A stretch of DNA of 40,792 bases from an uncultured Clostridia bacterium. GTDB taxonomy: Bacteria; Bacillota; Peptococcia; Peptococcales; Peptococcaceae. The DNA is taken from NCBI GenBank assembly GCA_944391625.1, contig CALXUG010000025.1, positions 1 through 40,792 of the forward strand. The letters are read 5' to 3'. The first letter of the stretch is position 1; the number at the start of each line of letters is the position of its first letter. The translations under genes were made by a program, and so were the position numbers. Under the pieces are notes generated by a model. It was given only the letters and a program-made list of their open reading frames with translations, was not told the DNA's origin and did not search any database. Shown here piece after piece: positions 25,953 through 36,251 of this stretch.

Positions 25953-27215
25953 CTATACAATCATGCCAGGTATAAACAAAGGAAGATATACAATCAGCAA
26001 GAACACAAACAACAAACCCAGCAGATAAGGTACAACTGCTTTGGCAATCAATTCAATTGGTTTCCCTGTGATCCCCGACGCCACAAATAAATTGATAGCA
26101 ACAGGCGGTGTGATCATCCCAATGGCAATCCCCACTACAAACAAAATACCAAAGTGAATCAAATCAATACCTAAACTTTGCACCAACGGCAAAAATACAG
26201 GAGTCAGAATAATAATGGCGGAAGAAGTTTCCATAAACACACCGGCAATAATGATTACCAAAGCAATCATAAACAACAATACGTACTGATTCGTGGACAC
26301 TCCAAGAATACCGCCCGCAATTGCTTCCGGAATTTTATAGCTGGCTAATACCCAACCAAACGGACCGCTGCAAGCAATAATAATCATAATAACTGCCGAC
26401 GTTTTCGCACTGCCCGCCATAATTTCAAACAGCTTCTTAAAGGTCATATCCCGATATATCAAAAAAGATACCAACAGCGCATATACAACTGCAACTGCAG
26501 CAGCCTCAGAAGCTGTAAATTTACCGGAGAAAATACCGCCCAAAATAATCATCGGCATTAACAAACCGGGGAATGCCCGCATAAAAGTGAGCAGCACATT
26601 TTTCAACGAAAATTTTGCACCCTTCGGATAATTATGTTTATACGCCTGCGCCAAAGCAATGATAATCAAAATGACACCCATCAAAACACCGGGAAGAAAA
26701 CCATTGGTAAATAACCGACTTAAACTTTCGCCGGAACTGACCGCATACAGCACCATAGGTACAGATGGCGGGATAACCACACCAATGGTTCCTGCAGCTG
26801 CAATCAAAGCCGCCGCTGAATCTTCATCATAACCCCGTTCTTTTAATTGGGGAATTAAAGTAGAACCCACCGCAGCAGTAGTAGCTGCACCAGATCCGGA
26901 AATAGCAGCAAAGAACATACCGGTTACAACCGACACAATGGACAAACCGCCTTTGATCATACCCAAAAATGATTCGGCAAACTCTACCAAATATTTAGAA
27001 ATGGCGCCCTGCGCCAATAAATCACCGGCCAAAATGAAAAAAGGAACAGCAATTAACGGAAAAGAATTGGTACTGGCAAACATACGCTGCGCAATCATTC
27101 CCAATCCAACATCACCGGCAGTCATAACAGCCATAGCTGCCAGCATAATGGCAAAGGCTACCGGAATCCCTACCAGCAATGCAACAAGAAAAACACCAAA
27201 TAATAGAGCTGCCAT
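25953..27215 (-). CDS. dctM: TRAP transporter large permease subunit (DctM-like)
   Basis: A 420-residue, very hydrophobic protein with about 11-13 membrane helices of the DctM family. Typical motifs include ISGSGAATTAAVGS in the first half and GMITPPVAINLFVASGI in the second. It forms the sodium-driven channel of the tripartite transporter that takes up organic acids. The ATG overlaps the dctQ stop by one base (TAATG), with AAAGGGGG upstream. Confidence 0.94.
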   Translation of the reverse strand: MAALLFGVFLVALLVGIPVAFAIMLAAMAVMTAGDVGLGMIAQRMFASTNSFPLIAVPFFILAGDLLAQGAISKYLVEFAESFLGMIKGGLSIVSVVTGMFFAAISGSGAATTAAVGSTLIPQLKERGYDEDSAAALIAAAGTIGVVIPPSVPMVLYAVSSGESLSRLFTNGFLPGVLMGVILIIIALAQAYKHNYPKGAKFSLKNVLLTFMRAFPGLLMPMIILGGIFSGKFTASEAAAVAVVYALLVSFLIYRDMTFKKLFEIMAGSAKTSAVIMIIIACSGPFGWVLASYKIPEAIAGGILGVSTNQYVLLFMIALVIIIAGVFMETSSAIIILTPVFLPLVQSLGIDLIHFGILFVVGIAIGMITPPVAINLFVASGITGKPIELIAKAVVPYLLGLLFVFLLIVYLPLFIPGMIV

Positions 27216-27703
27216 TACAGTTTACCCCCTTTTTCCTGCAGAATCTGCAAAATTGCATCAACCGCATGAATAATCATCAACCCAAATCCGATTGGTATAG
27301 ACATATACATATATTTCATCGGTATCCGCAAAGCAGGTGCCAACTGCGCCTGTTTTCCTGCATAAACAAAACCATAATAAACAATGGCACAAAACGCCAG
27401 GATACAAATTACATGTACAATGATTCGTATGATTCGCTGTACTTTCGGCGAAAACAGTCCATGCACAAAAGTAATGGAAATATGTGTACCCGCTTTATAT
27501 ACACAACTGGCGCCCAAAAAAGTAGACCAGATGAGCAAATAACGATTTAACTCCTCGCTCCACTGCAATGCGCTGCCCGCAGTACGGCAAATAATCTGCG
27601 CTGTGGTTACAAGTACCATAACACCCAACATAATCACAATAAGCACCAAACAGATTTTATCAATGATATCGCTGAATTTTTTAAAGCCATTCGCAAAACC
27701 CAT
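27215..27703 (-). CDS. dctQ: TRAP transporter small permease subunit (DctQ-like)
   Basis: A 162-residue protein with four predicted membrane helices (about 15-37, 52-68, 91-112 and 132-153). It has the family pattern R-x(7)-WSEELNRYLLIW between helices 1 and 2. DctQ binds DctM and is needed for transport. It starts after AAGGAG, and is separated from dctP by about 145 bases that contain two hairpins. Confidence 0.9.
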   Translation of the reverse strand: MGFANGFKKFSDIIDKICLVLIVIMLGVMVLVTTAQIICRTAGSALQWSEELNRYLLIWSTFLGASCVYKAGTHISITFVHGLFSPKVQRIIRIIVHVICILAFCAIVYYGFVYAGKQAQLAPALRIPMKYMYMSIPIGFGLMIIHAVDAILQILQEKGGKL

Positions 27704-27726
27704 TTCAATACAACTCCTTATGTATA

Positions 27727-27758
27727 AAATGATTTATGCAAAACCAGATAAATCATTT
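27727..27758 (-). repeat. Perfect AT-rich hairpin upstream of dctQ
   Basis: An 11-bp perfect inverted repeat (AAATGATTTAT with ATAAATCATTT) around 10 bases. It lies just upstream of the dctQ ribosome site and has no T tract. It might protect the 5' end of a processed dctQM mRNA or bind a regulator. Confidence 0.5.
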
Positions 27759-27804
27759 CTGTGCATTCATTCGGCAAAACAACCATTTGCAGTGTTTCGC
27801 CGAT

Positions 27805-27836
27805 AAAAATGCAAGGCAAGTTGCCCTGCCTTGCAT
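27805..27836 (-). terminator. Terminator-like hairpin between dctP and dctQM
   Basis: A perfect 10-bp stem (ATGCAAGGCA with TGCCTTGCAT), an 8-base loop and TTTT on the minus strand, 12 bases after dctP. It would let dctP be made in excess over the permeases, with partial read-through. Confidence 0.75.
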
Positions 27837-27848
27837 CATTACTACATA

Positions 27849-28871
27849 TTATTCAGCTACAGCAGCCTGAATTCTTGCCAGATAATCAGCATATTCCGGA
27901 TATGCGTCATACACAGGCTGTACCGCTTCTCTGAAGCTTTCCAGATCCGGTTCTTCTACAACTTCCATACCATTGTCTTTCATTTCCTGCAACTGTGCAG
28001 CTTCGTTTTCGGCTGTCCAGTTTCTTTCATATACAGCAGCCTCCTGCGCAGCATCTTTAAAGATGGTCTGTACATCTTCCGGCAGTTCATTGAATTTTTC
28101 CAAACTCATGGTGATAATCGCTGTGGAATAAGAATGACGGGTCAATGTTGCATATTTCTGATTAGATTCCCACAAAGTATAAGAACAAATTACATTGATT
28201 GGGTTTTCCTGCCCTTCAATTGCACCATTCTGCAATGCGGTCAATGTTTCTGTCCAAGCCATTGGACTGGCATTAGCACCCAGTGCTTCAAATGTTTTTG
28301 CATATACTTCATTTTCCATAACACGCAGCTTTAAACCCTGCATATCAGCTACAGTTGTTACCGGTTTTACACTGTTGGTTAAGTTACGGAAACCACGTTC
28401 TGCATAAGCCAGACCTTTTAAGTTGGCATTTTCCAGAGTTGCCAGCAGTTCCTGACCAACTTCACCGTCTAAAACTTTATGCGCTTCTTCATTGCTGCCA
28501 AACAAAAATGGCATATCCAATACACCCATATCATTGGAGAAATTAATAAACGGACCGCTGGTTACAATGCCCAATTCCAATTCGCCAGCAGCCATGCTTT
28601 CCAGCAAGGTAGCTTCATCGCCCAATTTATTATCCGGATAAATTTCAATCTGATAAGCGCCATCTGTTTTTTCTTCTACAATCTCTTTAAATTTTTCAGC
28701 TGCAATCTGGAAACTGTCTTTTTCATTTACAGTTGTCGCCAGTTTCATTACAACAGGCTCTCCGCCAGCATTTGCATCTTTCTCTGCATCGCTGCCGCCG
28801 CCACAAGCTGTTAAAGTAAAGGCCATGGCACATACGGTCAACGCTGCAACCCATTTACGTGCTTTTTTCAT
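27849..28871 (-). CDS. dctP: TRAP transporter solute-binding lipoprotein (DctP-like)
   Basis: A 340-residue extracytoplasmic binding protein. It has a lipoprotein signal peptide (basic MKKARK, hydrophobic core, lipobox LTAC with Cys23). The DctP fold follows, with LATTVNEKDSF at the start of the mature domain, the GLKLRV segment whose conserved Arg183 salt-bridges a carboxylate, and a FRNLTN segment. The substrate is probably a C4-dicarboxylate or another organic acid, not resolvable from sequence. The frame continues 25 codons upstream over the promoter; the ATG at 28871 after GGGGGA is preferred. Confidence 0.93.
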   Translation of the reverse strand: MKKARKWVAALTVCAMAFTLTACGGGSDAEKDANAGGEPVVMKLATTVNEKDSFQIAAEKFKEIVEEKTDGAYQIEIYPDNKLGDEATLLESMAAGELELGIVTSGPFINFSNDMGVLDMPFLFGSNEEAHKVLDGEVGQELLATLENANLKGLAYAERGFRNLTNSVKPVTTVADMQGLKLRVMENEVYAKTFEALGANASPMAWTETLTALQNGAIEGQENPINVICSYTLWESNQKYATLTRHSYSTAIITMSLEKFNELPEDVQTIFKDAAQEAAVYERNWTAENEAAQLQEMKDNGMEVVEEPDLESFREAVQPVYDAYPEYADYLARIQAAVAE

Positions 28872-28930
28872 TGGTAAATCTCCCCCATAAATAAATATCA
28901 TTTTGGACATCAGTATCTGTCCATGCACAG

Positions 28931-28959
28931 AGTATAGCACCGTCATTCCCAGAAGTCAA
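28931..28959 (-). promoter_or_regulatory. Promoter of the TRAP operon
   Basis: Minus-strand TTGACT (28954-28959), a 17-base spacer and TATACT (28931-28936), about 55 bases before the dctP start. Confidence 0.75.
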
Positions 28960-28961
28960 TT

Positions 28962-29010
28962 ATCTGTACAATAAAAGTTTCAAAAAATTCAAAATAGTTA
29001 TAGTACAGAT
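28962..29010. promoter_or_regulatory. Inverted repeat upstream of the TRAP promoter (candidate operator)
   Basis: ATCTGTAC at 28962-28969 and GTACAGAT at 29003-29010 form a perfect 8-bp inverted repeat with centres 41 bases apart, about four helical turns. The nearer arm abuts the -35 box. Each arm contains GTAC, resembling half sites of GntR-type regulators, but no regulator gene lies nearby. The rest of the gap to 29090 shows nothing further. Confidence 0.4.
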
Positions 29011-29090
29011 GAAATCAAATAATTTCCACAAATAAATTTATTGGTTTGCATATGGACCAAAACACCGCACAGCATAATTTACCGACAATA

Positions 29091-29141
29091 AAAGATACTG
29101 CAAAAAATGGCCCCTGCAAGGTCATTCTTCACAGTATCTTT
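29091..29141 (-). terminator. Long terminator hairpin after the nitrilase gene
   Basis: Outer arms AAAGATACTG and CAGTATCTTT pair perfectly. On the minus-strand RNA the inner part continues with several G-U pairs to a stem of about 22 bp around a 7-base loop. TTTTATT follows. The G-U pairs work only in the minus-strand RNA, which agrees with termination of the glpK-nitrilase unit. Confidence 0.7.
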
Positions 29142-29215
29142 AAATTAGTTCCGTTCTCAAACCACATCTTAAATGCCTGCGTGATTATTCCCGGTTCTGC
29201 AAAACATCTCTGACA

Positions 29216-30034
29216 TCACTGTCCGTTAATACGATATAAATCGGTACGCCGATTGTATATAGACGGATTTTTCTGCCGTACAGCCTCTAAATATTCCAAA
29301 TCAATTTCTGCCAAAATAATACCGGGTTTGTCAGATGCGCGGGCAATCACCGTACCCCATGGGTCAACCACCATACTGTTGCCATAAGCAGTAAACTTTT
29401 CTTTTACGCCGGTCTGGTTCGGCGCAATCAAATAGCAGCCGTTTTCAATGGCTCTGGCACGTAAAATTGGCTCCCAGTGATCTTTTCCTGTAGGCATGGT
29501 AAAATTAGCAGGCAAGAAAATAATCTGTGCGCCCTGCAGCGCCATCAACCGAAACAATTCAGGAAAACGCATATCATAACAGATAGCAAACCCCAAATGC
29601 CCCAATTCAGTTTCCACAGTAACAATCTGATGCCCAGGCTCCTTGCGGTCGGACTCCCGCACACTGCTGCCGTCAGGCAATGTCATATCAAAATTATGCA
29701 GTTTACTATAGCGGGCAGCAATCTGCCCTTCTGGATTTACCAGTACCGACGTATTATAGGTGCGCACTCCGTCAGGATTGACCTCACTGATGCTGCCGCC
29801 ATGAATCCAGATATGATGCTCTTTTGCTTTCTGCATAAAAATCTCCGTTGTAGGGCCGGGAATGGGCTCCGCATACATCGGTTCCTCACTGAGAATATTG
29901 ACAACCTCGGGAAATGCTACCAACGCAGCACCTTTAGCCGCCGCTTCATCAATAAAATCGCTTATCTGCCGCCAATTCGCCTCTTTATCATTTTGTGTAT
30001 CCATCTGCACAACCGCAACCGTAAACTTTTTCAT
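29216..30034 (-). CDS. Nitrilase-superfamily carbon-nitrogen hydrolase (omega-amidase / Nit1-like)
   Basis: A 272-residue enzyme with the Glu-Lys-Cys catalytic triad: Glu43 in FPEVVN, Lys111 in YSKLHNFD and Cys152 in ICYDMRFPE. The KLHNFD and CYDMRFPELFR segments are closest to the Nit branch (deaminated glutathione amidase, omega-amidase), which repairs or hydrolyses amide side products. Substrate is uncertain. The ATG at 30034 follows AGGAGG and is preferred to one seven codons upstream. It starts 81 bases after glpK without a clear promoter, so it may be cotranscribed with it. Confidence 0.85.
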   Translation of the reverse strand: MKKFTVAVVQMDTQNDKEANWRQISDFIDEAAAKGAALVAFPEVVNILSEEPMYAEPIPGPTTEIFMQKAKEHHIWIHGGSISEVNPDGVRTYNTSVLVNPEGQIAARYSKLHNFDMTLPDGSSVRESDRKEPGHQIVTVETELGHLGFAICYDMRFPELFRLMALQGAQIIFLPANFTMPTGKDHWEPILRARAIENGCYLIAPNQTGVKEKFTAYGNSMVVDPWGTVIARASDKPGIILAEIDLEYLEAVRQKNPSIYNRRTDLYRINGQ

Positions 30035-30115
30035 AGCCTGCCTCCTGTTCCTCATAAACCAACCTTGCCGCCCGTCAAAAACTACTGTACCAATCTTTCC
30101 GTAAGAATCTTTCTT

Positions 30116-31597
30116 TTATTCCGCCCACTGCATCGCTCGCTTTACAGCCTTTTGCCAGCCATAACAGTTTTCTTCCCGCACAGCTTGCTCCATCTGCGGG
30201 AAAAACTGCCGCTCTGCATGCCATTTTTCTGCAATTTCTTCTTTACTGTTCCAATATCCTACCGCCAAACCTGCCAGATAGGCCACGCCCAAGGCGGTGG
30301 TTTCTGTAATCGCAGGCCGTTTCACCTGACAATTGATAATATCCGCCTGAAACTGCATCAAAAAATTATTACGGCAAGCGCCGCCGTCTACTTTTAATTC
30401 GGTCAGCGGCTGACCGGCGTCTTCTTCCATAGCTTTCAGCACATCATTGGTCTGATAAGCAATCGCTTCCAGTGCAGCCCGTATCATATGGCTGCGGCCG
30501 GTACCCCTTGTCAGTCCCGATATGCTGCCTCTGGCATACATATCCCAATAAGGCGCGCCCAAACCTACAAAGGCCGGCACCAGATAAACACCGCCGTTAT
30601 CTTCCAGCGCAGCAGCATAGCTTTCACTCTCCGCCGCCGTTTCAATCAAATGCAGCTCATCCCGCAGCCATTGAATCACAGCGCCGCCCACAAAAATAGA
30701 GCCTTCCAACGCATATTCCACCTGATTATCCATGGTAGCAGCAATGGTTGTAATCAATCCCTGTTTGCTGCTGATAAACTGCTGACCAATGTTCATCAGC
30801 AAAAAACAGCCGGTGCCATAGGTATTCTTTGCCGATCCCTGTTCAAAACATGCCTGCCCGAACAGCGCCGCCTGTTGGTCGCCGGCAATACCGGATATGG
30901 GCACCTGCGCCCCTTCACTTTGCACATAGCCGTAAATTTCTGAAGAATTGCACACTTTCGGCAGCATACAAACAGGAATATCAAACCGCTGCAACAGCTT
31001 TTCATCCCATTGCAAATCTCGGATATTATATAACATGGTGCGGGACGCATTGGTATAATCGGTGACATGCACCGCACCGTTGGTCAGTTTCCAGACCAGC
31101 CAGCTGTCTACTGTGCCAAAAAGCAGTTCCCCCTTTTTCGCACGCTCCCGCGCACCGGGTACATGGTCGAGAATCCAGTTAATTTTAGTAGCAGAAAAAT
31201 ATGCGTCGATAACCAATCCGGTGTTGGCGCGGATGTAATCCTCCCAGCCCTCTGCCTTTAGCTGCTCACACAAATCTGCCGTTCTGCGGCATTGCCAGAC
31301 AATGGCATTATAAATAGGTTTGCCTGTTTCCTTTTCCCAGACAATGGTAGTTTCCCGCTGATTGGTAATACCAATACCAGCTACATCGGCCATGGTAATA
31401 CCGGCCTTAATCAAAGCCTCCTGCAGCACCCCATATTGAGTAGCCCAAATCTCCATCGGATCATGCTCCACCCAGCCGGGCTGCGGATAAATTTGCCCAA
31501 ACTCCTTTTGCCCCACTGCCACAATAGTTTGCTCATGGTCGAACACAATGGCTCTGGAACTGGTAGTTCCCTGATCTAATGCTACAATATATTTCAT
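30116..31597 (-). CDS. glpK: Glycerol kinase
   Basis: A 493-residue FGGY-family kinase that forms glycerol-3-phosphate from glycerol and ATP. It shows [20 protein letters not shown] at the N-terminus, [19 protein letters not shown], the ATP-binding [11 protein letters not shown] and the C-terminal [18 protein letters not shown]. Length is typical. Two codons upstream a TTG opens the frame, but it touches the GAGGAA site; the ATG at 31597 is better spaced. No glpF or glpD neighbour is present. Confidence 0.96.
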
Positions 31598-31639
31598 AAA
31601 CAATTCCTCACTTTTATTGATTTCTTCTTATTTCTTTTC

Positions 31640-31668
31640 ATAATACCATTACAAAAAAGAAGTTGCAA
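31640..31668 (-). promoter_or_regulatory. Promoter of glpK
   Basis: Minus-strand TTGCAA (31663-31668), a 17-base spacer and TATTAT (31640-31645), about 40 bases before the glpK start. No catabolite-response (cre) box was recognised around it. Confidence 0.65.
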
Positions 31669-31704
31669 TAATAGAATCTGACAGAATCCACCTGCAACAA
31701 ACGC

Positions 31705-31776
31705 AAAAAAGGCCGCCCGCAAACACTCTGTTGAAACTCTTTTTCAACGTGCTGTTTGTGCAGCAGCCTTTTTTAT
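31705..31776 (-). terminator. Terminator after sigH, active-looking on both strands
   Basis: Outer arms of about 20 bases pair imperfectly. Inside them is a perfect GTTGAAA/TTTCAAC hairpin. T runs flank the structure on both strands (GGCCTTTTTT on minus, GCCTTTTTTA on plus). It lies about 100 bases past sigH and about 40 bases before the glpK promoter, and separates the two units. Confidence 0.75.
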
Positions 31777-31878
31777 TCTATTTTGTTCCTATAGCGGCAA
31801 CAGCAATATTTTATGACGGACTATTATACAGACCATCTCTATTACCAATCACCATCGTTACAACATGGATTCTGTTTT

Positions 31879-32517
31879 TTAAATACTGTCTACGCAAAAG
31901 TTCAGTGCTTTCGATTTGTTCACTTTTTTACGAATCCGCTGCACTGCATTGTCCACCGATTTATTTTCAAGCTGCAAGGCAAGGGTAATCTCATTATAAG
32001 ACATTCCCATCATGCGCATAATCAATACGTTTAACTCCATTTTAGAGAGCAGGGAGGCAATCTTCTGCATAATTTCTGCATAAGTTTCCCGCTCCACAAC
32101 TGTATTTTCCGGCGATACAATTTCACCGCTGGAATCCCGTTCAATCAGATAAGCCGCTTTCCCTTCAATCTGCTCGTCGTTTTCATTGTAGTTGGACATG
32201 GATACTGCATCATTCAATACCATATGTTTTTTACGGTTAGAACGTTTTACACAAGAATCCAGTTCCCGTTTGATGCAGAGATAAGCAAAGTTTTTAAATT
32301 GTTTTCCGCTTTCCGGTTTATATCCCTTTACGCTTTGCACAAAGCCGATCATGGCTTCCTGCATCAAGTCATCCCGTTCACCGTCTTTTAAATAGTATTT
32401 ATCACAAATGTAACTCATCAATCCCTGGTACCGTTTTAGCAGATGTTCCATAGCTGCTTCGTTTCCCTGTTGCGCTGCTTCAATAATTTCTTGCTCAGGC
32501 TTATCTGCAAACTCCAT
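31879..32517 (-). CDS. sigH: RNA polymerase sigma factor of the SigH family
   Basis: A 212-residue sigma-70-family factor. Region 2 contains LLKRYQGLMSYICDKYY and DDLMQEAMIGFVQSVKGYKP, with FKNFAYLCIKRELDSCVKRSNRKKH as -10 recognition. Region 4 (about 150-205) has the helix-turn-helix MSYNEITLALQLENKSVDNAVQR. The pattern matches SigH (Spo0H), which directs early stationary-phase, competence and sporulation genes, and the length is close to the Bacillus protein. Context is unusual: 12 bases after cysK, with AGGAGG before the ATG. Confidence 0.88.
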   Translation of the reverse strand: MEFADKPEQEIIEAAQQGNEAAMEHLLKRYQGLMSYICDKYYLKDGERDDLMQEAMIGFVQSVKGYKPESGKQFKNFAYLCIKRELDSCVKRSNRKKHMVLNDAVSMSNYNENDEQIEGKAAYLIERDSSGEIVSPENTVVERETYAEIMQKIASLLSKMELNVLIMRMMGMSYNEITLALQLENKSVDNAVQRIRKKVNKSKALNFCVDSI

Positions 32518-32529
32518 TCTAAATTCCTC

Positions 32530-33456
32530 CTAATTTGTTTCCCGAAATAATTCGGTCGATAAGTAACGCTCACCTGTATCCGGCAATATTACTACAATGC
32601 GTTTTCCTGTATTTTCTGGACGGCTGGCCACTTGTTCCGCAGCCAAAAGCGCCGCTCCCGAAGAAATGCCTGCCAAAATGCCCTGGGTTTTTGCCAGCAT
32701 TCTGGCTTCTGCCATGGCTTCATCTCCATCAATCATCAACACTTCATCAACCAGTGATAAGTCAAGAATAGATGGAATAAAACCGGCGCCGATTCCCTGT
32801 ATTTTATGCGCCCCTTTTGGGTGGCCATTGATGACTGCTGACTGCAATGGTTCTACACCGATTATTTGTATCTCTTTATTGTACTCTTTTAAACCTTTGG
32901 CGATTCCTGTAATGGTGCCTCCGGTGCCAATGGCGGCAACCACAATATCCACTTTGCCGTCGGTATCCGCATAAATTTCCTGCGCAGTAGACAAATAATG
33001 GGCTTCCGGATTGGCTTGATTATCAAATTGTCCGCACATATAGCTTCCCGGTATTTCCTGCAGCAATGCTTCTGCTTTGGCAATGGCGCCGGACATACCA
33101 TCAGCCGCCGGTGTCAGCACAATGTCCGCACCGTAGGCTTTCAGCAAGCTCTGCCGTTCCTGGCTCATATTTTCCGGCATGGTCAAAATCATTTTATAGC
33201 CCTTCACTGCTGCCATTAAAGCCAAACCTACACCGGTGTTTCCGCTGGTTGGTTCTATAATGGTTGCACCAGGAGCAATGGCGCCTTTTTTTTCTGCATC
33301 CAGCAGCATGTAAGCGCCTACCCGATCCTTAATGCTGCCGCCCGGATTAAAGGATTCCACTTTTGCTGCAATTTCCGCTTTTATTTCCGGATTGGACAGA
33401 TGCAGCCGAACCAGTGGTGTACGGCCAATCAATTCTCCAATATTATCATAAATCAT
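32530..33456 (-). CDS. cysK: Cysteine synthase (O-acetylserine sulfhydrylase)
   Basis: A 308-residue PLP enzyme that makes cysteine from O-acetylserine and sulfide. The PLP lysine is Lys43 in NPGGSIKDR, the substrate loop is PTSGNTGVGLA, the phosphate loop is GTGGTITG, and GISSGAALLAA lies near the C-terminus. A GTG three codons upstream also opens the frame; the ATG at 33456 is chosen for its spacing from AAAGG. It is followed closely by sigH. No T-box was found in its leader. Confidence 0.95.
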   Translation of the reverse strand: MIYDNIGELIGRTPLVRLHLSNPEIKAEIAAKVESFNPGGSIKDRVGAYMLLDAEKKGAIAPGATIIEPTSGNTGVGLALMAAVKGYKMILTMPENMSQERQSLLKAYGADIVLTPAADGMSGAIAKAEALLQEIPGSYMCGQFDNQANPEAHYLSTAQEIYADTDGKVDIVVAAIGTGGTITGIAKGLKEYNKEIQIIGVEPLQSAVINGHPKGAHKIQGIGAGFIPSILDLSLVDEVLMIDGDEAMAEARMLAKTQGILAGISSGAALLAAEQVASRPENTGKRIVVILPDTGERYLSTELFRETN

Positions 33457-33525
33457 GTCTATCACCCTTTACATTAACGTCATCGTATGACTCTCTATAT
33501 CCTACAGAAATCTCTCTTTACCGAA

Positions 33526-33554
33526 ATTATGATTACTTTTCAATCAAAAAGCAA
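33526..33554 (-). promoter_or_regulatory. Second possible promoter of cysK
   Basis: Minus-strand TTGCTT (33549-33554), a 17-base spacer and CATAAT (33526-33531). It is weaker than the one at 33604-33631 but closer to the gene. Confidence 0.35.
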
Positions 33555-33603
33555 TCATATAAAATTTCTAAAATGCTCTTATAAACTAGTATCAGTGTAC
33601 GCG

Positions 33604-33631
33604 ATTATATATGGAAATGCAAGTATCCCAA
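33604..33631 (-). promoter_or_regulatory. Possible promoter of cysK-sigH
   Basis: Minus-strand TTGGGA (33626-33631), a 16-base spacer and a perfect TATAAT (33604-33609). The leader would be about 140 bases. The AT-rich surroundings make chance matches likely. Confidence 0.45.
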
Positions 33632-33793
33632 ATGATTTTTTACTATTTCCCAAAGATTATACAAAAAACAGACTAAATTTTGCACTTTTCTTGACAATTT
33701 CCACAAAATCTACAGCGCTCTTTTATTTTTATCAATTATTTTCTCAATCATATTATCTTACCAAATTTACATTGTGGTGGATTCGGTCCCAAA

Positions 33794-34198
33794 AAGCTAA
33801 CAAAACCATTGCTGCGTTAGCTATTTTGTTAGCTATTATTTTTCTCTCAACCAATAGGGTTACAGCAAACAAAGCTAACAAACTAACATAGCTAACCATT
33901 TTTTAAGGGTATATAAGAAAAAAATAAAAAGAAATACATTATATTTTATTTATATTGACATTTATATTTATATTATATTTTATCCATATTTATATTTACA
34001 CTTACATTTTTATATTTACACTTATATTTATATTTTTTTCATTTATATTTTTTAAATAACAATTAGATTTTACTTTTTGTTTTATTTTTTTCTATAGGGG
34101 CTCCCCCCTCCAAATTACGTTAGCTATGTTAGCTTTGGCTTAACCAATATGGTTTGCCGGTTATTTTTACGTTAGCTAATCTGTTAGCTATTGTTAGT
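33794..34198. repeat. Two clusters of GTTAGCTW repeats flanking an AT-rich core (origin-like or mobile-element relic)
   Basis: Left cluster: AAGCTAAC at 33794 and 33872, TAGCTAAC at 33889, and GTTAGCTA at 33816 and 33828. Right cluster: GTTAGCTA at 34119, 34171 and 34183, and GTTAGCTT at 34128. Degenerate GTTAGT copies occur at 33882 (reverse) and 34193. Each cluster also has one AACC-N5-GGTT palindrome (33849-33861 and 34142-34154). Between them, 33938-34090 is nearly pure A/T with only a few G, including a 20-base unit in tandem (33991-34030, 18 of 20 identical). A GGGG...CCCCCC block lies at 34097-34108. No convincing gene lies in 33466-34320. The layout (iteron-like repeats beside an easily melted core) resembles a replication origin, but no initiator gene is present. 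Confidence 0.6.
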
Positions 34199-34271
34199 TT
34201 TTCTGCATCAATTCTTTGATATGTTGTTGTTTCTGCTTTTTATACTGCCATGTTGTTATAATTGCACAATA

Positions 34272-34316
34272 AAAAACAGGAAGACATCATCTGTTTCCAG
34301 ATTACATCTTCCTGTT
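34272..34316 (-). terminator. Terminator of the Sel1-repeat gene
   Basis: Outer 11-bp perfect stem (AAACAGGAAGA with TCTTCCTGTTT) with an inner ATCTG-GAAA-CAGAT hairpin, followed by TTTATT on the minus strand, 10 bases after the stop codon. Confidence 0.9.
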
Positions 34317-34326
34317 TATACGCTTT

Positions 34327-35079
34327 TTATTCTTCTGTTTCTAATGCTTCTTTTGCTTCTACAATTCCGGCATCTGCTGCTTTTTGATACCATTCTCTGG
34401 CTTTTTCAGCATCTTTGGCAATTCCTTCACCGTTGGCATAGCACTGCGCCAACAAAAATTGAGCGTCCGGCATATATTCAGCGGCCTCTAATAACAATTG
34501 CACTGCTTTCTCTTTATCCTGTTCTACGCCTTCGCCTTCAAAATAGGAAATTGCCAGATTCATTTTGCCTGCAGGATGGTCAGCCTCTGCTGCGCTTTGA
34601 AACCATTTTACAGCCTCTGCATAATCCTGCTCCACACCCATGCCCTGGCTGTAGCAAATACCCAGATTTACCTGCGCCTCCAAAGAACCACGCATAGCAG
34701 CTTTTAAATACCATTCGGCAGCTGCTTCCAGATTTTGTTCTGTTCCCTGACCAAAGGTATAGCATTCGCCAAGAAACTGCTGGGCAATGATATGTCCCTT
34801 CTGCGCAGCAATTTTAAAGTTTTCAAACGCTTTTTCCAGATCCTGTTCTACGCCGTCGCCATTGTAGTATCGGCCGCCCAGCAAATAGCAGGCATTCAAA
34901 TTGCCCTGCTCCGCCGACTTCTGATACCAGTAGATGGCTTTTTCGATATCCGGCTCTACCCACTTGCCTTGCTCATAGCACATAGCCAAATTAAACTGGG
35001 CGCGGGCAAAACCTTCGCTTGCCGCTTCTTCCAGTTCTTTCAGTTTTTCTTTACTATCAATCAATTCAGCTTGCTGCAT
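34327..35079 (-). CDS. Sel1-like repeat (TPR-type) protein
   Basis: A 250-residue protein made almost wholly of about six 36-residue Sel1 repeats (from residue 24 onward), each with the A-x2-LG-x2-Y-x-G-x-GVEQD-x-EKA-x-x-W(Y/F)-x-x-AA pattern. Such alpha-solenoids mediate protein contacts. No signal peptide or membrane segment is present, so it is probably cytoplasmic, and the partner is unknown. It follows the foldase gene by about 70 bases; AAGGGAGGG precedes the ATG. A perfect palindrome CAGATAGGTATCTG (35116-35129) lies upstream, beside a TATAAT-like box. Confidence 0.9.
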   Translation of the reverse strand: MQQAELIDSKEKLKELEEAASEGFARAQFNLAMCYEQGKWVEPDIEKAIYWYQKSAEQGNLNACYLLGGRYYNGDGVEQDLEKAFENFKIAAQKGHIIAQQFLGECYTFGQGTEQNLEAAAEWYLKAAMRGSLEAQVNLGICYSQGMGVEQDYAEAVKWFQSAAEADHPAGKMNLAISYFEGEGVEQDKEKAVQLLLEAAEYMPDAQFLLAQCYANGEGIAKDAEKAREWYQKAADAGIVEAKEALETEE

Positions 35080-35147
35080 GCATAGCCCTCCCTTGTTCCG
35101 ATTTTGCTTCTGCTTCAGATAGGTATCTGTTTATTATAATTTGACTA

Positions 35148-36194
35148 TTACTCTGCTGCTGCATCATCAGCAGGCGCATCGGCAACATCAGTCTGTTCTG
35201 CATCAGCTGCATCTGTTTGTTCTGCATCGGTATTATCGGCAGCAGCATCCTGACCGGTAGAAATAGTTTCCGGTACAGATGTTTCGTCAATCAAAATTTC
35301 AATTTTGGCATCTTCCATCAAGCTGGCAGCCAGATTATTTAAACCGTTTGCATAAATACCCTGTAAAATACTATCGTATTTATTTTCAGGATTTTCTAAC
35401 AGATTTACATCAGACTGTTTGTCTTCTACCAAAATGATGTGGTAGCCAAATTCACTTTTTACAGGTTCTTTAGAATATTCTCCAACTTCCAGTTCCTGCG
35501 CTGCTTTGCTAAATTCATCCACCATTTTAGATGTTGTTAAACCGGTTACAGCAAAATAACCCAGTTCACCGCCGTCGACAGCAGAACCTGTATCGTCAGA
35601 ATTTTCTTTTGCTAAAGTGGCAAAATCAGCGCCGCCGTCCAGCTGGGCAATCAGGTCAATGGCAACCTGTTCTGCATTTTCCTTTTCAGAACCAACCAGA
35701 ATATGTTTTGCTTTAATGACATCCACTGTTTCAGGATTGTTCACTATATCCTGCAGCAGTTTACTCTGCAACATATATTCTTTCCATGCATCTTTGTAGT
35801 ATTCCATGGTCATACCGGACTGTACAACCGCCTGCTCAAAATCAGCCTGGCTGCCGCCAAAGCTGTCGGCTACCGACTGATTAATGGCTTCATTAAGTTC
35901 TTCATCGGTTACACTCAAACCACGCTTTTCAGCTTCCTGCGCCAATAATTCCTGGGCAATCAGATTATCCAAAACAAAATTGCGGCTTTCCACTTTTAAG
36001 GTTTCGTCAGAAACATCAGCGCCATACATCTGATACTTCTGCATGATCTGTGTATAATTGACATCCAGTGTTTCCTGAGAGATAGGTTCACCGTTTACGG
36101 TGGCCACTGTGCCATCCGGCACGTTATTGCCGCAGCCTGTCAAACCTGCAAGCAAAAATGTACCTAAAACCAATACTGCTAATTTCTTTTTCAT
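35148..36194 (-). CDS. SurA/PrsA-like peptidyl-prolyl isomerase lipoprotein
   Basis: A 348-residue secreted foldase. It has a lipoprotein signal with lipobox LTGC (Cys21), a SurA-type N-terminal chaperone domain (about 25-150, starting VATVNGEPISQETL), a parvulin domain (about 159-258, KAKHILV to FGYHIILVED) and a very acidic, Ala/Asp-rich C-terminal tail with repeated DAEQTD. It helps proteins fold after Sec export. The ATG at 36194 follows AAGGAG; the frame is open nine codons further. It sits 75 bases after mfd with its own promoter; pth-mfd-foldase is a common Firmicute order. Confidence 0.92.
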   Translation of the reverse strand: MKKKLAVLVLGTFLLAGLTGCGNNVPDGTVATVNGEPISQETLDVNYTQIMQKYQMYGADVSDETLKVESRNFVLDNLIAQELLAQEAEKRGLSVTDEELNEAINQSVADSFGGSQADFEQAVVQSGMTMEYYKDAWKEYMLQSKLLQDIVNNPETVDVIKAKHILVGSEKENAEQVAIDLIAQLDGGADFATLAKENSDDTGSAVDGGELGYFAVTGLTTSKMVDEFSKAAQELEVGEYSKEPVKSEFGYHIILVEDKQSDVNLLENPENKYDSILQGIYANGLNNLAASLMEDAKIEILIDETSVPETISTGQDAAADNTDAEQTDAADAEQTDVADAPADDAAAE

Positions 36195-36251
36195 TGTGTT
36201 CTCTCCTTCGATTCTTTGCAATTAAGCTGCTATTATATTTCATACCCCGTT

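Follow-up and report, generated by a model that had tools for sequence, protein, structure and literature searches.

Iteron clusters around an AT-rich core

In the 40.8 kb stretch of DNA analysed here (the window), the gap between the cysK gene and a Sel1-repeat protein gene contains two clusters of the motif GTTAGCTW on either side of an AT-rich core, which together very probably form an orphan origin of replication. Nine copies of the motif were found, at 33794(-), 33816(+), 33828(+), 33872(-), 33889(-), 34119(+), 34128(+), 34171(+) and 34183(+). All copies in the window lie within 33794-34190, and 100 shuffles gave a mean of 2.67 and a maximum of 6. Two GTTAGTTT variants are located at 33880(-) and 34193(+). 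The orientations are mixed in the left cluster and uniform in the right one, and each cluster holds one AACC-N5-GGTT box (33849-33861 and near 34142-34154). The core is A-rich to about 33938 and T-rich thereafter, with a 20-bp tandem repeat at 33985-34037. The original prediction had described the repeats, their two variants and orientations, one such box per cluster and the AT core with its switch and tandem repeat, and the analysis confirmed all of these. It had treated them as a single locus; the repeats are real, and the unit is a dispersed repeat rather than one locus. Across the genome GTTAGCTW is not enriched (97 matches compared to 110 for the reversed control pattern), so its clustering is the informative property, and the clustering is restricted to seven copies of this element. 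The unit extends from about 33790, with an outer AAAAAGCTAAC, to near 34202, where GTTAGTTTTT ends. Its parts and the flanking genes are as follows.

~33790..34202, + strand: whole unit, putative orphan iteron-type origin (~410 bp); the six related stretches elsewhere in the genome stop matching at these outer iterons
33794..33896, mixed strands: left iteron cluster with six GTTAGYT iterons; the six slots align across copies
33794-33801(-), 33816-33823(+), 33828-33835(+), 33872-33879(-), 33880-33887(-, GTTAGTTT), 33889-33896(-): iterons of the left cluster
33849..33861, + strand: left conserved box AACCAATAGGGTT, in every copy with small changes
33910..34092, no strand: AT-rich core (9.8% G+C), presumed melting region, unalignable between copies except at the A-tract and T-tract edges
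34079..34097, + strand: conserved core edge, a T-tract followed by CTATAG, from the alignment of copies
34119..34200, + strand: right iteron cluster with GTTAGYT at 34119, 34128, 34171, 34183 and 34193, in a single orientation
34137..34155, + strand: right conserved box GGCTTAACCAATATGGTTT, from the alignment; compare GGCTTAACAAATAGGGTTT behind the helicase gene of a congener (G004)
32530..33465, - strand: cysK (PALP family; PF00291, 1e-76), flanking gene outside the unit
34327..35079, - strand: Sel1-repeat protein gene (PF08238, 2e-66), flanking gene outside the unit

Seven copies and one initiator helicase gene

We used the unit (query positions 52-463, equal to window 33791-34202) to search the genome (G000; 2.97 Mb in 74 contigs), and found six further places, named C51, C4, C55, C10, C31 and C16. 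A genome search for GTTAGCTW clusters near replication genes had been proposed in the original prediction; the seven copies comprise six orphans, including the window copy, and the C16 copy, which lies directly behind a helicase gene. The alignment showed that the copies have in common, on the left, an outer AAAAARCTAAC, the left iteron set, the AACCAATAGGGTT box and the A-tract edge, and on the right the T-tract/CTATAG edge, the right iterons with GGCTTAACCAATAGGGTT and a terminal GTTAGYTTTTT. The cores between the A-tract and T-tract edges cannot be aligned among the seven copies. Homology ends at the outer iterons, except for a left flank common to C4 and C10 and a right flank common to C10 and C55; since these flanks are shared, they point to local duplication in those pairs. 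The neighbouring genes of the copies are unrelated and the orientations mixed. The tree of the copies was poorly supported and did not place C16 as the root. The C55 copy has lost its left end at the contig end, inside the left iteron cluster (C55:15660-15667), so the repeat probably interrupted the assembly there.

The TAA that ends the only DUF927 gene of the genome, which encodes a 679-aa MCM-like helicase resembling SaPI Rep, is also the point where the C16 copy starts. Domain searches identified DUF927 (PF06048, 3e-35) and a Cch helix-turn-helix at residues 565-659 (PF18662, 6e-14), and the Walker A residues FGKT are conserved at 348-351. A DUF927 core with Walker A and a C-terminal Cch helix-turn-helix characterize initiator helicases of the DUF927/Cch type, and the C16 protein has both. 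It matched PHROG 8841, 'DNA primase/helicase', almost from end to end (8e-150), and the PDB entries 8tch, annotated 'Pathogenicity island protein', at 3e-20 and 5dgk, annotated 'Active helicase', at 2e-13. Its score against the NCBIfam Cch1 model was 71 bits, under the cut-off of 700. A divergent helix-turn-helix regulator gene adjoins the helicase gene. A known defence system was rejected as an explanation of the locus, as the helicase had no PADLOC match and the regulator genes matched generic helix-turn-helix families only. Beside the C16 origin there are also two tandem matches to the SpF66 small RNA family (L018:5305-5850) adjoining small open reading frames for membrane peptides, and this pair resembles a duplicated type I toxin-antitoxin locus.

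The number of intact GTTAGYT iterons is 11-13 per complete copy, with 11 in the C16 copy. As read off the alignments, about 66 of the 68 orphan iteron slots are intact, and the two exceptions are slot two of C51 and the slot near 34160 in the window, which is degenerate (GTTATTT). The spacer columns differ by about 40% on average between copies. Iteron columns are 89% identical compared to 61% for spacers, a contrast that is partly circular, as the labels were taken from the consensus. If the slots had drifted at the spacer rate (~0.13-0.2 per lineage), about 26-42% of them would stay intact. The near-intact iterons therefore suggest that selection probably preserved them through most of the period since the copies diverged. 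The selection may have acted on the orphans themselves, as decoys or as origins fired in trans, or else on elements that were still intact and lately lost their other genes. The recent decay of six elements is conceivable but less easy to accept, because no fragments of rep, integrase, primase or phage structural genes were recognised next to the orphans.

The same plan behind homologous helicases

Homologues of the DUF927 helicase were found in two of the seven other genomes of the genus (G004 and G005), one in each and about 45% identical. Directly after the helicase stop codon in G004, TGTCTCAC/GTGAGACA iterons (GTGAGAC) form two clusters on either side of an AT core, together with the extra boxes GGCTTAATGAATATGGTTT and GGCTTAACAAATAGGGTTT. 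In G005, G-run (GGGG) iterons follow the helicase stop, together with CAGCTTAACAAACAG and TCGCTTAACCATTAG. A GCTTAA(C/T) box occurs once per cluster in both genomes. A search of G005 for orphan copies of its origin matched only the origin behind the helicase gene itself and 43 bp within the AT core. An S24-type repressor gene in G005 (L088:4930-8360) is divergent from the DUF927 helicase with its own origin, and evident phage genes are absent nearby. Because regulator, helicase and origin occur together without evident phage genes both at C16 and in G005, a stand-alone regulator-initiator-origin module is present on the chromosome of two congeners, with differing neighbours.

We compared 6-mer arrays in the gap after the helicase gene with those in 300 dinucleotide shuffles. 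The array in the G004 gap was significant (0/300 shuffles). The results showed significant arrays at all eight phage and plasmid loci (0/300 each) and in 18 of 20 viral contigs, that is, in 26 of 28 gaps for these genes combined; in-gene control stretches of the same genes had at most four copies of any 6-mer and no such array. Position and plan in the eight phage and plasmid records are as in C16, with one small gene between in phiRg507T2_3. An edge similar to the CTATAG core edge was found in the phage origins AC844P1 and MT835739. In the closest viral relative (L231, 40% identical), AATTCC iterons occur with GGCTTAATGAAG and TCGCTTAATAAAC, and related GCTTAAC-type boxes are found once per cluster. 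Its genes are arranged as in phage replication modules, in the order ATPase, primase, helicase, origin and a nuclease-like gene, with functions judged by eye from the sequences. The plan is thus constant while the iterons switch (GTTAGCT, GTGAGAC, GGGG, and AATTCC in this relative), which helps in looking for such origins by their position instead of their sequence.

The Rep protein of Staphylococcus aureus pathogenicity islands (SaPIs) recognises, with its C-terminal domain, iterons directly downstream of its own gene, and Cch, which contains DUF927, is related to SaPIbov1 Rep (PMC7581432). The replication-origin plan of SaPIs and phage-inducible chromosomal islands (PICIs) has been described (PMC6092414; Ubeda et al. 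as cited in PMC7581432). Like these origins, the C16 origin directly adjoins the 3' end of a Rep-type helicase gene, and iterons vary between elements. Unlike them, the window copy has no rep beside it, six orphans lie on one chromosome, each cluster has an extra GGCTTAACCAATAGGGTT-type box, and integrase, primase, terS and attachment sites were not seen. None of the further components of a whole PICI (integrase, primase, packaging genes and attachment sites) was found among the neighbours of C16 or of the orphans. Firmicutes phage origins (phiRg507T2_3, AC844P1, Jekyll, THSA-485A, Epona and others) likewise have a homologous helicase and then iteron clusters around an AT-rich stretch, but there the origin is a single copy within a replication module, whereas here the helicase is alone on the chromosome and the orphans are dispersed. 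Cch and Cch2 of the staphylococcal cassette chromosome share DUF927 and the Cch helix-turn-helix (PF18662) with the C16 protein and have target repeats directly downstream, in a putative origin (PMC7581432); in contrast, the C16 protein is far under the Cch1 equivalog cut-off, and no ccr recombinase was seen nearby. The origin class behind an initiator gene is known. What is new is the six orphan origins with iterons almost all intact, spacers diverged by about 40% and cores that cannot be aligned.

A probable orphan origin and its alternatives

Taken together, we conclude with a probability of about 0.86 that the window gap is an orphan origin of the SaPI/PICI and Firmicutes phage type, without an initiator gene beside it. 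The homology of the copies, the physical linkage of one of them to an initiator gene, the recurrence of the plan and the intact iterons are the observations that carry this reading. Because the published SaPI/PICI plan and the linkage at C16 match, the window unit would be this plan minus the initiator gene. Of the 'surviving origin of a lost integrated element' in the original prediction, the kind of origin stands, given the homologous copy behind an initiator helicase and the plan in congeners and phages; a lost element at the window site is not supported, with none of the other element genes left near any orphan. That no initiator is adjacent is true for the window copy.

By homology and from the literature, the C-terminal helix-turn-helix of the C16 helicase is predicted to bind the GTTAGYT iterons on both sides, after which the initiator would load helicase rings, the AT core would melt and forks would start. 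The C16 helicase is most likely the matching initiator, and it could act in trans at the window copy and the five other orphans; without it, the window copy is predicted to be silent. With one initiator and seven matching sites on the chromosome, a single protein could in principle serve them all. It is possible, although we regard it as doubtful, that the chromosome has kept the lone initiator with its seven origins, six of them dispersed orphans under selection, as an auxiliary multi-origin network in which the initiator, when induced, would fire or hold several sites simultaneously, or that the orphans form a decoy array against related phages and satellites. One initiator with seven cognate origins is a clean natural case of the separation of initiator and target, in which it can be tested whether initiators of mobile elements fire host loci in trans and whether hosts retain element origins as decoys.

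Several results weigh against the orphan-origin reading. No rep, primase or integrase gene adjoins the window copy or the other orphans, and tblastn found no rep remnants within several kb of them. At C16, no integrase, primase or phage structural genes were seen by eye (contig ~15,000-52,000), and for this reason the C16 initiator may itself be a silent relic. The array in the G005 gap was below significance (21/300 shuffles), and the case for an origin there is statistically weak. Since a contig end truncates the C55 copy on its left side, the status of this copy as an orphan depends on the count of one DUF927 gene in a 96%-complete assembly.

The strongest alternative accepts the origin identity and takes the orphans as inert remains of integrated phages or satellites on which nothing acts now; we give it slightly less than an even chance. 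It is simple, the initiator and the plan are of phage type, the unit is absent from the sister genomes, and the lone C16 initiator is also without phage genes. However, the slots are far more intact than drift would leave them, and all six orphans have been trimmed to identical outer iterons, leaving no fragments of other element genes. No source phage or plasmid emerged from BLAST against collections of phages and plasmids or from pattern scans of viral contigs, which matched nothing or only by chance and in simple repeats. The single exact-pattern match in GTDB species genomes, in a Lysinibacillus metagenome-assembled genome, lies in apparent coding sequence without a surrounding iteron cluster.

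Extra iterons in trans inhibit iteron plasmids. By the same means the orphans could titrate or handcuff the initiator of incoming GTTAGCT phages or satellites and so protect the host, and the retention of iterons beside diverged cores in six dispersed intergenic copies would agree with this. However, a virus with a GTTAGCT origin was not found, nor was a decoy system of SaPI type in our literature search, and we consider this protective role improbable. The copies are dispersed, lie in both orientations relative to their neighbours and share an inverted end (AAAAARCTAAC...GTTAGYTTTTT), and in this they also resemble a miniature inverted-repeat transposable element whose end repeats are transposase-binding sites. 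This is very improbable: no consistent target duplication was seen by eye in the flanks, the cores cannot be aligned though the ends can, one copy starts at an initiator stop codon, the plan with other repeats follows homologous initiators, and no autonomous partner with these ends was found in the genome.

An operator for cysK or the neighbouring sigma factor gene (the cysK-sigH operator of the original prediction), or a chromosome-organising site, is suggested by the dense repeats upstream of cysK, which resemble protein-binding sites, but is hardly credible, as the copies lie beside unrelated genes in both orientations, follow the plan of a known origin class and are absent from the seven sisters although cysK and Sel1 are present there. 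An RNA element was rejected: the window region 33400-34400 had no Rfam match at gathering score, and the weak consensus folds of the ends are explained by inverted iterons, with no convincing covariation.

The absence from the seven sisters was determined by profile search. A model search (R1) of 46 genomes of the class and, with stricter filters, of 398 of the phylum matched this genome alone, leaving 397 other phylum genomes without the unit. As cysK and Sel1 are found in the sisters without it, the reading as a conserved host function fails; the original prediction had named loss of the repeats in relatives that keep the flanking genes as evidence against it, and this leaves an origin from a mobile element unaffected. 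In the sisters, Sel1 follows dctP, and cysK, which is not adjacent to Sel1, lies between a sigma factor gene and a nitrilase-like gene. Because of this rearranged order, the empty site cannot be read at the window or at C31.

The gene order of window 25953-36221 is rearranged relative to three sisters, where dctMQP is followed directly by Sel1-prsA-mfd and cysK lies by other genes, and the orphan origin is at one of several breakpoints. We also found a separate hairpin repeat family of about 150 bp (L016:5670-5852, equal to C10:14169-14351; -72.8 kcal/mol as RNA), with 46 matches in the genome at 74-100% identity; C31 and C4 have copies, as do at least 40 other places. At C10, C31 and C4, a hairpin copy lies about 50-100 bp to the left of the origin unit. 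A group II intron match (L014:2039-2115) is located about 4 kb from the C4 orphan origin.
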